Positions 9,760-60,207 of a stretch of DNA of 64,000 bases are shown in pieces. Each line of letters begins with the position of its first letter. The first letter of the stretch is position 1. Below the pieces are notes generated by a model. It searched no databases. It was given only the letters and a program-made list of their open reading frames with translations, and was not told the origin of the DNA. The position numbers and the translations under genes are program-made. The stretch is from Verrucomicrobia bacterium S94. GTDB taxonomy: Bacteria; Verrucomicrobiota; Kiritimatiellia; Kiritimatiellales; Pontiellaceae. The stretch is taken from the NCBI GenBank assembly GCA_004299845.1, contig CP036201.1, positions 434,001-498,000 on the forward strand. Reading direction: 5' to 3'.

Positions 9760-10296
9760 CTATCGGAGTTCCTCTTCGTTGCTTTGTATAAACTGTTTGA
9801 GCAGGGCCATATTTTCCGAGGTATTCAGGTTGCCCAGGGCGTCGACGAGATCGTTTCTGCTCACTGAGTAGTGTTTTTCGTTCCTGCGGTGTTCTATGGT
9901 CAGATTTCCTTCAAATCCGTAAGTCATCAGGGAAACGGCGGCCGGGGTGAAGCTGCCGAACGCTGGAAGATCCACGTTCCGGGGATCGAGGTTGCAGGTC
10001 ACCGTAGTACCGGTACCTTCTTCTGATTCGATCTCCGCCGATCCACCTGTCATTTCCGCCGTCTGGAACAGGAAGGGGAGGCCGAGGCCCACTTTGCGAT
10101 GCCGGTGTTTGCCGTCCGACCAGAACGGATCTTTGGCTTTGGCCAGCGTTTTCGCATTCATTCCTTTTCCGTTGTCCTGAATAACGATCTTTAAATGGGT
10201 GTCCGTCTCCTCGACCTTAAGGGTTATTTCACTTGCGCCGGCCTCGAACGCGTTCTGCACCAGATCGGTGATCAGATCGCAGAGGGTGGCATGCAT
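9760..10296 (-). CDS. HATPase-domain protein of the hydrogenase operon
   Basis: A 178-residue stand-alone GHKL ATPase domain. The nucleotide-binding boxes are visible: DLITDLVQNAFEAGA (N box, near residue 10), IQDNGKGM (G1, near 54), and KVGLGLPFLFQTAEMTGG (G2, near 88). There is no dimerisation or phospho-acceptor His domain and no membrane segment, so it is not a complete sensor kinase. Small ATPases of this kind sit between hndA and hndB in many anaerobes' hydrogenase operons. A regulatory (anti-sigma-like) or assembly role has been supposed but is not shown by sequence. Ribosome binding site AAGGAAAG; it lies 3 nt after hndA. Confidence 0.85.
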   Translation of the reverse strand: MHATLCDLITDLVQNAFEAGASEITLKVEETDTHLKIVIQDNGKGMNAKTLAKAKDPFWSDGKHRHRKVGLGLPFLFQTAEMTGGSAEIESEEGTGTTVTCNLDPRNVDLPAFGSFTPAAVSLMTYGFEGNLTIEHRRNEKHYSVSRNDLVDALGNLNTSENMALLKQFIQSNEEELR

Positions 10297-55682: not shown

Positions 55683-55988
55683 CTATAAGATTGTTGAATG
55701 GATGAAGAATATGACGGCGAGGGTGAGGTAGAGCCCGCCGGCGCAGGCCATCGGAATCCAGACGAGAATGCGGTGTTTGAAGTGGATCTGCATGCTGCGT
55801 TCGACAAACCAGGTGAGCGCGAATCCTGCAGGATAGAGAAAAATATAGGGGACAGTCAGAAATCCTTTAAGTTCCTCGAGAGTCCGGAAGTCGCCATAGA
55901 TCAGTAGGATACGGTGGATGAGGATCAGAAGGGCCCAGCTGATAAACAGACCGGAAGTCGCAATGTAGATTTTTCCGTATGGACTCAT
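55683..55988 (-). CDS. Small membrane protein, function unknown
   Basis: 101 residues with three hydrophobic segments: about 8-30 (ATSGLFISWALLILIHRILL), 44-62 (VPYIFLYPAGFALTW) and 76-98 (WIPMACAGGLYLTLAVIFFI). No motif or family is recognised. It is 88 nt from trhO on the same strand. Confidence 0.6.
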   Translation of the reverse strand: MSPYGKIYIATSGLFISWALLILIHRILLIYGDFRTLEELKGFLTVPYIFLYPAGFALTWFVERSMQIHFKHRILVWIPMACAGGLYLTLAVIFFIHSTIL

Positions 55989-56194: not shown

Positions 56195-56515
56195 ATGAAC
56201 CTAACTTCTTTAAACGAAACCGGCACATTGATCGTTGAGGTGCAGTGTGCATGTATCGACGCGATGAATTCCGGCGATTTTAGGAAAGAGGTTATGGGCT
56301 GCTGAGTCCGGCTGAGAATTTTTTTTGATCTCAAGGGGCTCAGTTTTCCGGACTGTTCCGGTCTCGGGGTGCTGTTGTCCTGTATGCGTCGGGTTCGCAC
56401 CGGCGGTAAAAGACAGGTGCTGTACAGTCTTCAGCCGAAGGTGCGGAGTTGGTTCATCCGGAACGGGGTTTGGCCATTACTGAAACCCGGGATGACGCAT
56501 CGGCCATATGATTGA
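56195..56515 (+). pseudogene. Decayed STAS-domain (anti-sigma-factor antagonist) gene
   Basis: Read from the ATG at 56195 the frame gives MNLTSLNETGTLIVEVQCAC, reaches an in-frame TGA near 56303, then continues in the same frame as FDLKGLSFPDCSGLGVLLSC and RRVRTGGKRQVLYSLQPKVR. This is a STAS pattern (DLxG-x-x-F-x-D-x-SGLG). Between the halves another frame reads GLLSPAENFF, so two compensating indels, the second at an eight-T run, fit better than a single stop. The TGA or the indels leave it non-functional as written. It converges on the intact STAS gene. Confidence 0.65.
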
Positions 56516-56575: not shown

Positions 56576-56938
56576 TTAACTGTGCGGATGGTTTCCGGGT
56601 GAGACCGTCAGCACTTCCAGGGCTGCGTCGGTGGTGTCATAAAGATCAAAAATCCGGGTCATTTTCACCAGCCGGAACATGGCCAGGACCTGTTCGCCGA
56701 CGTGGGTAAGGACCATTTGATTTTCGCTTTCCTTAACTTTGCGTAACAGTGAAAGCAGGGCACCAAGGCCGGTGGAGTCGATGAATTCCACATTCCGGAG
56801 ATCCATAATGACGTTGAATCCCGGAGTGATTTTTTTTCCGCTGATTTCTTTGAATGCAGGGACCGACTGCACGTCCAGCCGGGGCTGAACCGGTTCAAGT
56901 ACGATGATTTTACGTTGTTCTATACGGGAGGATTTCAT
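56576..56938 (-). CDS. STAS-domain protein (anti-anti-sigma factor type)
   Basis: 120-residue SpoIIAA/RsbV-like domain. Core VIMDLRNVEFIDSTGLGALLSLLRKV near residue 43 contains the DSTG motif with the phospho-acceptor Ser, followed by NQMVLTHVGEQVLAMFRL. It would bind an RsbW-type kinase, be phosphorylated by it, and release it. Its ATG overlaps the stop of the fusion gene upstream, whose C-terminal domain is RsbW-like, so they are probably partners. Confidence 0.92.
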   Translation of the reverse strand: MKSSRIEQRKIIVLEPVQPRLDVQSVPAFKEISGKKITPGFNVIMDLRNVEFIDSTGLGALLSLLRKVKESENQMVLTHVGEQVLAMFRLVKMTRIFDLYDTTDAALEVLTVSPGNHPHS

Positions 56939-58869
56939 TCGGTGTCTCCTTTTTCTGAGCGATTGAATGTAAGCAATAGCCGGTTCCAGCCATTGTAGCG
57001 GGAGTACTCAATCCGGTCGGCGATCTGATTGATAATATGCCACCCGAATCCACTGGTGGATTGGCCGGAGAAGTCGGGGGCGTGAATGGCATCAATATCG
57101 AAGGGTTTACCTTTGTCGTACAGGCTGAATGCAATGCTGGCGGGTTGAGAATTTACATGAATCTGAATGGGCTGGTGCTTTTCCGCTTCATAGGCGTGTT
57201 TGATAATGTTGATGAGTGCCTCGTGGAGTGCGGTGATAATGTCGTTTTTTCTCTGTCTGGAAATATTATCCTGCGAGGTACTTCTCAACTGTTCGTTGAT
57301 GAATGCATGAAATTCATCAATAGTCTCTTCGCCATTGATCATGGTCAGGATGTGCGGGGACTGTTTCCCGAAGGTGGGTTCATGCTGGCCGGCCAGATAC
57401 CGCCGGAGCACGTTGCAATCCGTTCGGAAGCTTTGTGCTGCGGTATAAAAGGATTCCGAGCTGAACTGTTGGTCTGCGGAGCTGTCACCGATGTGGTAAC
57501 GGTCGACTTCCGCAAGCTGGAACAACCCGGGTTTTCCTCTGAGATATAACCTGCGCCAGTCTTCATTCAGGGCAAGAATTTCCTCGGCGTTCCGCGGGGC
57601 GAGTCCTACCCAGTGCAGCTGGCCGAAGGCAATATCCGGCAGGGCAGGGAGGAGACGGAGCAGGGGAAGGATCTGCGCATTTCTGGATTTCGGATCGGCC
57701 CGGGTAGTCCACTGATGAAATGAAAACGTTTTCCAGAGTGCGGGATCGGTTTCGGTCGGAATTTTTACACACTGAATGCGTCGGATCGGCAGCTGCCTGT
57801 ATTTCATAAGACGGACCAGAGCGATCAGTAAAGTGAGCGGCCATGTCAGAAGCAGTATAAGCAGAGCCGCAATCCGGCCGGCGATACCAACGGTTAAACG
57901 GCCCCGTCCTTGCTGGTGGTTAGCTGCGATCGGAAAGCGGTCGGAAACCGCCGATGTTTCCGGATCTTTGTAGGCCAGATGGTTACGGTCGATCACAGCC
58001 TTTTCGAGTTCGAGTTGGCTTTCTATGCAGGTGTCTTTCATCACGCAACATGCTTTCAGTGTAGTTTGCTTTCGAATAATGCAACGTTCCGCAATGCTGA
58101 CATCCGGACCGATAACGGAATTTTTTTCGATCCGGCAGTTTTCTCCGATCCAGACCGGAGGCTGAAGCCTGACGGAGGGGTGTATCACGCTTCCGGCACC
58201 GATCCATAGCCCTTTTTCCTTTTCGGGCCCGTAGACGAATTGCCCGGGAAACTGATGATGCAACAGGATTTTCGAGGAGGAAAGCAGATGATGTGATGAG
58301 CGGCAGTTGAGCTCGGGGCCGTATACAGGTAGAGAGGGAACGTTCTCGCGCAGGAGAAAATCAGCCAGTTCGTCCGGCGAAGCGGCGGTGCAGTGGTTTA
58401 GACGAGACGGGGTTAATGAGGCCCATCCGGTCCATACGCCGTTCTCATCCATGAGGAGTGCGGAGCCGTTGGCATGCATACGGTGCAGGTGTTCCGCGTC
58501 AAACGGAGGCAGGCGAAACAGATCGCCCAGAAGATATGCGCCCCGGATATCAAGCCTTTTCAGTCGCTCGACAACTGATGCGTTCCGGGAAATGTCGATA
58601 AGGCGGATTTTCAGTCCCCAGCGAGTTCCATTGCCGAAAAAAGCGGCGGCAGCATCCGGTTTGTCGTTGATGATGATAACCAGGTCTTCAATGCCCAGGT
58701 CGCTCAGTCGCCCGGCAATGCGGTCGGCCATATTTTTTCCGGACAGCGGCAGCAGATAGGCCGGAATATGCTCTGTAATGGGGGCGAGTGAAGTGTCGGC
58801 ACAGAGTGCCGGCAGTACGGCCGTGCGGAAGGGGGAATCGGCAGAGCCGGAAGAGGATGCTTCAGGCAT
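56935..58869 (-). CDS. Nucleotidyltransferase/beta-helix/sugar-transferase/RsbW-like ATPase fusion
   Basis: 644-residue multidomain protein. Residues 16-190: NDP-sugar nucleotidyltransferase-like (ALCADTSLAPITEHIPAYLLP); the usual GGxGTRL loop is not recognisable, so probably inactive. 220-295: hexapeptide-type left-handed beta-helix (GAGSVIHPSVRLQPPVWIGE). 325-352: TM segment. 395-500: similar to the C-terminal part of initiating sugar-phosphate transferases (VGLAPRN, YLRGKPGLFQLAEVDRY, FRTDCNVLRRYL), with the early catalytic part short and divergent. 510-640: HATPase_c_2 with ALHEALINIIKHAY, YDKGKPFD and TSGFGWHIINQIAD, like RsbW. It overlaps the STAS gene by 4 nt. I infer polysaccharide priming tied to partner switching; no single domain is proven active. 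GGAGC lies before the ATG. Confidence 0.8.
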   Translation of the reverse strand: MPEASSSGSADSPFRTAVLPALCADTSLAPITEHIPAYLLPLSGKNMADRIAGRLSDLGIEDLVIIINDKPDAAAAFFGNGTRWGLKIRLIDISRNASVVERLKRLDIRGAYLLGDLFRLPPFDAEHLHRMHANGSALLMDENGVWTGWASLTPSRLNHCTAASPDELADFLLRENVPSLPVYGPELNCRSSHHLLSSSKILLHHQFPGQFVYGPEKEKGLWIGAGSVIHPSVRLQPPVWIGENCRIEKNSVIGPDVSIAERCIIRKQTTLKACCVMKDTCIESQLELEKAVIDRNHLAYKDPETSAVSDRFPIAANHQQGRGRLTVGIAGRIAALLILLLTWPLTLLIALVRLMKYRQLPIRRIQCVKIPTETDPALWKTFSFHQWTTRADPKSRNAQILPLLRLLPALPDIAFGQLHWVGLAPRNAEEILALNEDWRRLYLRGKPGLFQLAEVDRYHIGDSSADQQFSSESFYTAAQSFRTDCNVLRRYLAGQHEPTFGKQSPHILTMINGEETIDEFHAFINEQLRSTSQDNISRQRKNDIITALHEALINIIKHAYEAEKHQPIQIHVNSQPASIAFSLYDKGKPFDIDAIHAPDFSGQSTSGFGWHIINQIADRIEYSRYNGWNRLLLTFNRSEKGDTE

Positions 58870-59469
58870 ATCAGTAAGCTCCTTTATCTGTAAATGCTAC
58901 GGGGATGGAAGGGAGCCGGGGTTTAATATTCATCCGGATAGAGGTGAGCTCTGGTTTGGTGTCGAGTCGGCGGTGATCGGCATCTGTGTGCGGATTAGTG
59001 TCCCGAGACCGGGCGATGCACTTCGTCAGCAAAACTTCAGTCTGGTACTGATTATCGTTCATTTTCCGGCCTGTACGTTTTCTGCCGAGCTGTAAAAACC
59101 GCATTTGGAGTGTTTGGGTTGAGCGGTCTGCGAAAAGACTGTTTGTTTTTTTTCATATATCGGAATGATTTATCCCCGTTGGTGTGCGGTAGCGTATTAT
59201 ATTGTTGTGAACCTCTGTAAGCAATTAGTGTACTAAAATTAATACAGTAGGAAAACGTCGAAATGAGGGGACGAGCCGTGTCTTTCCGGGGAGGAGCTAT
59301 ATCGGCGGAATGAGATGAATATCAGAAATGAAAACAGAGAATTACAGCATAAAGGGTTTTCTGCCCTGCGGGAGGCGGTCGGAGCCCCTTCCGTTGATGT
59401 TTGTTTTTCTTGGTTTGGGGAACGGTTTTGGGCAAGATGCGCCGTCTTACGATTTCCAAGGGGAACAAC
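58870..59469. other. Intergenic region upstream of the DUF975 gene and the fusion gene
   Basis: About 600 nt with no conserved gene. A minus-strand frame (58871-59104) ends two bases before the fusion start and codes for nothing I recognise. The part 59160-59260 is AT-rich and promoter-like and contains TTAGT-GT-ACTAA (59225-59236). A 52-codon frame (59315-59473) ends in a stop overlapping the DUF975 ATG. Confidence 0.45.
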
Positions 59470-60207
59470 ATGACTGGATTAAATGATGATGGCGGGTTGC
59501 CGAAAATTACATTGCCTTCAACCGAAGGGGCTTCCGGCGGCGGGTTTGATGGCGGTGGGGTAACATCCAATGCCGATCTGACGGCTGAGGCCCGGGAGTC
59601 GCTTAAAGGTAACTGGGGGATGGCGGTTCTCGGCTACGTTTTATACACTGCGTTCTCATTTTCCATTTCTTTCTTTATCATTGCAGCCACGTTTTTTGTG
59701 AGCGTGGTTGCCGGGTTGGGCGGTGGAGATGTTAAAGCCGCTGCAGACCTGATCGGTGGAGTGGCCCAGCTTTTTCAGTTTTTTGTGATGCCGCCGGTAG
59801 TTATTGGGTTTTATGCGTATTACCTGGGAATTGCTCAGGAGGATGCGGCCCATCTGGAACTGTTGTTTGTCGGGTTTAAGCGGTTCTGGAAATCGCTGGG
59901 CGTCTACTTTTTCTATATTCTGTTTATCTATCTGTGGATGCTGCTGCTGATCATTCCCGGCTTTATTAAATGTTTCAGTTATTCGCAGGCTTTTTTCATT
60001 ATTGCCGACGATGAGGATTGCGGGCCGTTGGAGGCCATTAGACGGAGCAGGGAAATGATGGCGGGGAACAAATGGAAGTTTTTCTGCCTCAACCTGCGGT
60101 TTATCGGATGGGGTTTGCTGGCTTTGCTGACGTTCGGTATCGGGTATCTGTGGCTGGTTCCGTACATACAGACCTCGCTTGCAAAATTTTATGAAGATGT
60201 AAAATGA
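59470..60207 (+). CDS. DUF975-family membrane protein
   Basis: 245 residues. The Gly-rich N terminus (to about 40) is followed by ARESLKGNWGMAVLGYVLY and about five TM segments. Family features: IIPGFIKCFSYSQAFFIIAD near 160, GPLEAIRRSREMMAGNKWKFFCLNLRFIGW near 180. Members are predicted integral membrane proteins of unknown function. AGGGGA precedes the ATG at 59470. Confidence 0.88.
   Translation: MTGLNDDGGLPKITLPSTEGASGGGFDGGGVTSNADLTAEARESLKGNWGMAVLGYVLYTAFSFSISFFIIAATFFVSVVAGLGGGDVKAAADLIGGVAQLFQFFVMPPVVIGFYAYYLGIAQEDAAHLELLFVGFKRFWKSLGVYFFYILFIYLWMLLLIIPGFIKCFSYSQAFFIIADDEDCGPLEAIRRSREMMAGNKWKFFCLNLRFIGWGLLALLTFGIGYLWLVPYIQTSLAKFYEDVK

Follow-up and report, generated by a model that had tools for sequence, protein, structure and literature searches.

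A HATPase-bearing, probable pseudo-transferase scaffold paired with a STAS gene in a collapsed EPS locus of Verrucomicrobia bacterium S94

The window, a 64,000-nucleotide stretch of the genome of Verrucomicrobia bacterium S94, holds a gene in which a sugar-nucleotidyltransferase (NTase) part, a left-handed beta-helix (LbH), a phosphoglycosyl transferase (PGT) part and an RsbW-like HATPase are joined in one chain and which is directly followed by a STAS gene. We consider it rather likely that in intact loci such a chain is a regulatory pseudoenzyme of exopolysaccharide (EPS) initiation, in which a partner-switch kinase sits in the PGT complex and phosphorylation of the STAS protein gates EPS. 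In the window, the fused gene and its STAS gene are stranded in a collapsed EPS locus and are either a relic of recent origin or act in trans.

Domain composition of the fused protein and its STAS partner

56935 to 58869, minus strand: fused scaffold gene, pseudo-NTase / LbH / pseudo-PGT / HATPase, 644 aa (ORF, Pfam, AlphaFold2 and structure search)
58246 to 58833, minus strand: sugar-nucleotidyltransferase fold, residues 13-208 (alignment; Z 21.7 to MurU 4y7t)
57910 to 58215, minus strand: hexapeptide left-handed beta-helix, residues 219-320 (Pfam Hexapep 3.4e-14; low-confidence stretch of the model)
57379 to 57909, minus strand: small monotopic PGT fold, residues 321-497 (Z 17.2 to WbaP 8t53 and PglC 8e37)
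56950 to 57366, minus strand: SpoIIAB/RsbW-like HATPase, residues 502-640 (Pfam, alignment, structure search)
56576 to 56938, minus strand: single-domain STAS gene, 120 aa (ORF; Pfam STAS 1.1e-14)

Both reading frames, their 4 nt overlap and the DSTG motif are present as the first-pass annotation had reported. The STAS start and the stop of the fused gene share ATGA at 56938-56935. DSTG, the phospho-acceptor motif of the STAS protein, occupies residues 54-57 with Ser55 encoded at 56776-56774, and an alignment of 27 STAS sequences shows DS in every one of them. Pfam searches with the fused protein returned HATPase_c_2 (6.5e-16, residues 532-634) and Hexapep (3.4e-14), a weak match to NTP_transferase (0.013) and a match to Bac_transf (8.8e-5, residues 333-489) that lies under the curated cut-off, the sequence likeness to PGTs being weak.

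An AlphaFold2 model of the full chain was built from an alignment of 31 sequences (pLDDT 81.6, pTM 0.44), and the C-terminal half was modelled separately (pLDDT 86.3). Compared with the PDB, the modelled NTase part (residues 15-207) has a MurU/RmlA-like fold (Z 21.7 to MurU), the PGT part (residues 321-498) matches WbaP over 156 residues at 2.7 Å rmsd (Z 17.2) and residues 502-640 have a SpoIIAB-like fold (Z 16.5). The beta-helix is supported by the Hexapep match and by Foldseek matches to NTase-LbH proteins, the pLDDT of this block being about 45-81, and the domain positions relative to each other are poorly fixed in the model. The first helix of the PGT part (321-357) lines up with the membrane helix at the N-terminus of PglC; according to the model, a PglC/WbaP-type fold with an N-terminal membrane helix is present in the fused protein. 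Pfam and the structure searches therefore bear out the NTase-like, beta-helix, sugar-phosphate transferase and HATPase_c_2 parts that had been proposed, and the check suggested for the chain, an AlphaFold model, yielded both the sugar-transferase and the ATPase fold. A TM segment and part of a transferase had been described as two separate elements; membrane helix and PGT are both there, but as one nearly complete small-PGT domain.

The HATPase motifs are the N-box HEALINIIKHAY (549-560), DKG (585-587) and SGFG (606-609). Alignment to RsbW and SpoIIAB showed that the E and N of the N-box and the G1 and G2 residues are retained, which agrees with the RsbW-like assignment made at first.

Fused orthologues and the EPS loci of relatives

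Full-length fused orthologues were found in Pontiellaceae bacterium B12227 (G017, JAROAZ010000007.1) and in a MAG named Pontiella desulfatans (G024, JARFRL010000203.1), with 56% and 45% identity to the window protein and the domains in identical order. E550, N554, D585, G587 and G609 are invariant across the three fused proteins. The STAS gene overlaps the fused gene in all three loci, which supports the pairing of HATPase and STAS; the search for the same architecture, likewise advised in the first-pass annotation, thus found STAS adjoining in both orthologues. Because the two orthologues share domains, domain order and the downstream STAS gene, the fused architecture is not a chance ORF. The fusion was found in no more than three genomes, all of Pontiellaceae type, and a contig scan returned the two known orthologues, one weak match and nothing more.

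The gene order in G017 and G024 is PGT, fused gene, STAS. In G017, whose PGT has 245 aa, the fused gene opens a full EPS locus, in which STAS is followed by a Wza-like gene and then by export-type and glycosyltransferase-type genes, and at whose far end a second, convergent STAS gene (STAS') lies with a gene for a PAS-PP2C-HATPase protein of 791 aa. The same order occurs without the fusion in G076 (PP2C-HATPase, STAS', PGT, scaffold, STAS, Wza-like). In G352 (L092:3543-4393), a gene for a free-standing RsbW-like HATPase of 165 aa overlaps STAS and is adjoined by a PGT gene and a shortened scaffold gene; this HATPase is possibly the unfused counterpart of the fusion. The fused HATPase clusters with the HATPases of EPS loci, both those linked to PP2C and those that stand free, and is separate from the response-regulator type. 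An origin from the response-regulator-PP2C-HATPase of the paralogous cassette described below was ruled out, the two types being separated with full support.

Collapse of the locus in the window and a paralogous cassette

58871 to 59014, minus strand: relic of a PGT gene, reduced to the last ~74 codons and lacking a stretch inside these (E 1.4e-6; 0/500 shuffles)
56195 to 56499, plus strand: STAS pseudogene with an in-frame stop and a probable frameshift (0/500 shuffles)
59401 to 60207, plus strand: DUF975 membrane protein, right-hand flank, common to G017 and G027
55683 to 55988, minus strand: 101-aa membrane protein, left-hand flank (ORF)

The PGT relic was detected by a local search with a shuffle control, in which none of 500 dinucleotide shuffles scored as well; a whole-window tblastn at E 1e-3 did not show it. 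It ends with GAY-TGA one base before the ATG of the fused gene, and the same 1-nt spacing is found in G017. The STAS pseudogene lies directly behind the STAS gene in convergent orientation and has its closest counterpart, at 48% identity, in STAS' at the far end of the EPS locus in G017. A Wza of the G017 type was not found in the S94 genome with a single query, which divergent homologues can escape. With the PGT decayed, the EPS genes lost from the locus and STAS' reduced to a pseudogene, the fused gene and its STAS gene are stranded.

The DUF975 and tgt genes occupy the same flank in G017. In the nearest relative, G027, the 101-aa gene adjoins the DUF975 gene with nothing recognisable between them. 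One site is therefore seen in three states, as a full locus (G017), as a remnant (window) and empty (G027), and for G027 we infer the direction of change.

The decay raises the question whether the window pair is non-functional debris that has yet to acquire stops, a reading compatible with our explanation for the intact loci and one that we consider somewhat less likely than not. The PGT relic, the STAS' pseudogene, the missing EPS core and the empty site in G027 all point this way, as does the faster evolution of the fused gene relative to its G017 orthologue (90 versus 48 unique changes, chi2 12.8, with G024 as outgroup and the branching order of the three genomes uncertain). The excess falls mainly on the beta-helix (24 versus 5) and the NTase part (29 versus 15), whereas the HATPase (10 versus 8), the pseudo-PGT (22 versus 17) and STAS (13 versus 8) are not clearly accelerated. 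Against debris, the differences are still concentrated at codon position 3 and both ORFs are intact, over 644 codons in the fused gene and 120 codons in STAS.

The genome (4.1 Mb, one contig) holds a second, unfused cassette 10 kb from the fused gene.

Genome 499991 to 504155 (L054:13992-18156), just beyond the window: intact paralogous cassette of RR-PP2C-HATPase, PGT (244 aa), STAS (113 aa) and scaffold (472 aa)

Its scaffold has the composition pseudo-NTase/LbH/pseudo-PGT. A DHH-type gene, RecJ-like by eye, follows the cassette. PP2C is absent beside the window pair, and the nearest one is that of the cassette. The window pair might have been kept and act in trans on this cassette, which is likewise compatible with our reading of the intact loci. 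The cassette is intact, its PGT shares 52% identity with the PGT type that was lost, and no SpoIIE+HATPase_c_2 protein other than the one it encodes was found in the genome. However, the STAS lineages of window and cassette are clearly distinct in sequence, and so are the scaffold lineages, and we regard action in trans as unlikely.

The second intact PGT of the genome is large (477 aa; L136:6629-8062, genome about 1892630), and no scaffold or STAS match was found in the surrounding 14 kb. At 9760-10296 on the minus strand of the window, a short stand-alone HATPase_c protein of 178 aa is encoded beside a gene for a thioredoxin-like 2Fe-2S ferredoxin. A role in anti-phage defence was rejected after PADLOC gave no match.

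Linkage of the scaffold family with PGT and switch genes

A sample of 388 genomes from the phylum yielded relatives of the 472-aa scaffold, some of them partial matches, in 88 genomes. Among 48 scaffold loci, a PGT gene is adjacent in 45, a single-domain STAS gene is nearby in 33 and a PP2C/HATPase gene in 30, with at least one of these two switch genes in 40. Fifteen loci (15/48) have no STAS gene inside the distance scanned and 8/48 have neither STAS nor PP2C/HATPase, so that the scaffold does not depend on the switch. Two scaffold genes (L089:5909-7432 and L116:5032-6456) have no recognisable PGT within 1.5 kb.

As a control, 30 high-scoring PGT loci were taken from the class, 29 of them scaffold-free. 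STAS lies within 1.5 kb of 30 of the 45 scaffold-linked PGTs, whereas neither STAS nor PP2C/HATPase lies up to about 1.5 kb from any of the 29 scaffold-free PGTs; size class is confounded with scaffold association in this comparison, because the control PGTs are mostly of the large kind (frames of about 470-580 aa). The single control locus with a scaffold also carries STAS and PP2C/HATPase. Only single-domain STAS proteins were counted, and a WecG-STAS-STAS protein was excluded.

Some cassettes have further glycosyltransferase or STAS genes beside them. In G311 (L096:4124-5572) a WecG-family glycosyltransferase with two STAS domains is encoded next to the cassette, and in G258 (L128:3636-5090) another STAS-bearing protein of comparable length. 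In another lineage of the phylum (L115:2960-4294 and L124:1430-4417), the PGT-scaffold pair is preceded by a WecG-type glycosyltransferase in which a second stretch weakly resembles Bac_transf.

Pairs of RsbW/SpoIIAB and RsbV/SpoIIAA normally control sigma factors, and the fold match of the fused HATPase is SpoIIAB itself. The HATPase could accordingly be an anti-sigma factor with STAS as its antagonist, the fusion merely localising it and EPS control being transcriptional. The linkage data make this improbable, because STAS, PP2C and HATPase genes accompany PGTs that are linked to a scaffold and not those that are not; moreover, an unsystematic look at the neighbours examined recognised no sigma-factor gene.

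Loss of the catalytic motifs

In the window protein, the loop that aligns with GxGTR of RmlA- and GalU-type enzymes reads CADTS, and the signature Lys is replaced by Ala. A motif check found GxGTR in none of the 48 scaffold proteins. By alignment and pattern search, an Asp-Glu dyad at the catalytic position of PGTs was likewise present in 0/48 scaffolds and is absent from the window protein; two DE strings picked up by the pattern lie elsewhere in the chain, off the catalytic position. The PGT genes neighbouring the scaffolds, in contrast, keep the catalytic Asp-Glu in 45 of 45 cases. As GxGTR and Asp-Glu are lost in every scaffold examined, the fused chain is, judged by its sequence, very probably a pseudoenzyme with both transferase parts dead; together with the retained E/N box of the ATPase, this means that it is probably a regulatory scaffold and not a priming enzyme.

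The chain had first been called a polysaccharide-priming transferase. The motif states do not support this name. The active PGT is encoded by a gene of its own next door, which in the window is a relic. That the switch is tied to an envelope-polymer enzyme is upheld by the polysaccharide-initiation loci of the relatives, with the correction that the fused chain is very probably not itself that enzyme. We reject an active transferase because of the lost motifs, and a bifunctional priming enzyme, in which the NTase would form an NDP-sugar, sugar-1-phosphate would be passed to the lipid carrier by the PGT domain and HATPase-STAS would regulate in cis, is highly improbable even though every fold is present and NTases and PGTs act sequentially in such pathways: GxGTR is gone in 48/48 scaffolds, the dyad is missing, and a separate dyad-bearing PGT adjoins in 45/48 loci.

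Discussion

For the intact loci we favour a regulatory role of the fused chain in EPS initiation, and we infer that it shares the membrane with the PGT, acts as a kinase on STAS and gates the PGT. The scaffold would be located at the membrane beside the active PGT, which it would control. In Pontiellaceae, a putative kinase domain of the SpoIIAB/RsbW type is fused to the C-terminus of the scaffold, right before the STAS gene, and could bind STAS and phosphorylate it at Ser55. The phosphate would be taken off again by a PP2C protein, in G017 presumably the PAS-PP2C-HATPase encoded at the far end of the locus. Docking of STAS may then switch the PGT complex, and hence EPS initiation, on or off.

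The fused pair resembles SpoIIAB/SpoIIAA and RsbW/RsbV in its HATPase fold (Z 16.5), in the E and N of the N-box and in the DS phospho-acceptor of STAS; it differs from them in that the HATPase forms the tail of a membrane-type scaffold and that the supposed target is a PGT complex instead of a sigma factor. Structurally, the protein is close to NTase-LbH chains of the GMPPA/GMPPB and eIF2B type, which are without PGT or HATPase domains; GMPPA is a regulatory, non-catalytic subunit. Residues 321-497 share the fold of PglC and WbaP but lack their catalytic Asp-Glu dyad.

A close regulatory parallel is SypA/SypE, the partner switch of the syp polysaccharide locus of Vibrio fischeri, which acts below transcription (PMC10120452, PMC4517449). 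Like the scaffold cassette, it combines a STAS protein and a kinase/PP2C protein within a polysaccharide locus. SypE acts on SypA, whose own target was reported as unknown (PMC10120452). SypE is, however, a separate RR-kinase-phosphatase, and these papers describe no PGT-like scaffold to which the kinase is fused (PMC10120452, PMC4517449). In Myxococcus xanthus, the signalling protein EpsW directly activates the initiating PGT EpsZ post-translationally (PMC12802240). Control of an initiating PGT by a phospho-switch protein is common to that system and our proposal, but EpsW is a response regulator acting on an active PGT, with neither STAS nor pseudoenzyme (PMC12802240). The STAS-glycosyltransferase fusion all4160 of Anabaena and HmpUVW of Nostoc link STAS or a partner switch to polysaccharide genes (cited in PMC8256260); for neither does that paper describe a pseudo-PGT scaffold that carries a HATPase. 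Among open-licence papers, we found no description of the scaffold cassette.

Cultured Pontiella produce sulfated exopolymers resembling glycosaminoglycans (PMC7356697), and for this reason EPS control is relevant in the Pontiella group. The wider scaffold cassette is of more interest than the stranded copy in the window. Tentatively, and with less confidence than for the fused chain itself, we suggest that post-translational EPS switches exist on the scale of the phylum, in which the phosphorylation of STAS acts directly on the initiating PGT through a dead NTase-LbH-PGT scaffold, to which the kinase is fused in Pontiellaceae. In this family of scaffolds two dead enzyme folds have apparently been kept as regulators. 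Several bacteria hold an RsbV/RsbW-type switch in polysaccharide loci, and the target of the STAS protein is the question there (SypA, PMC10120452; HmpV, PMC8256260). Our proposal, that STAS controls the initiating PGT via a pseudoenzyme partner, turns this question into a concrete and testable one; if it is true, a PGT complex would be the kind of target to consider for STAS proteins such as SypA and HmpV.
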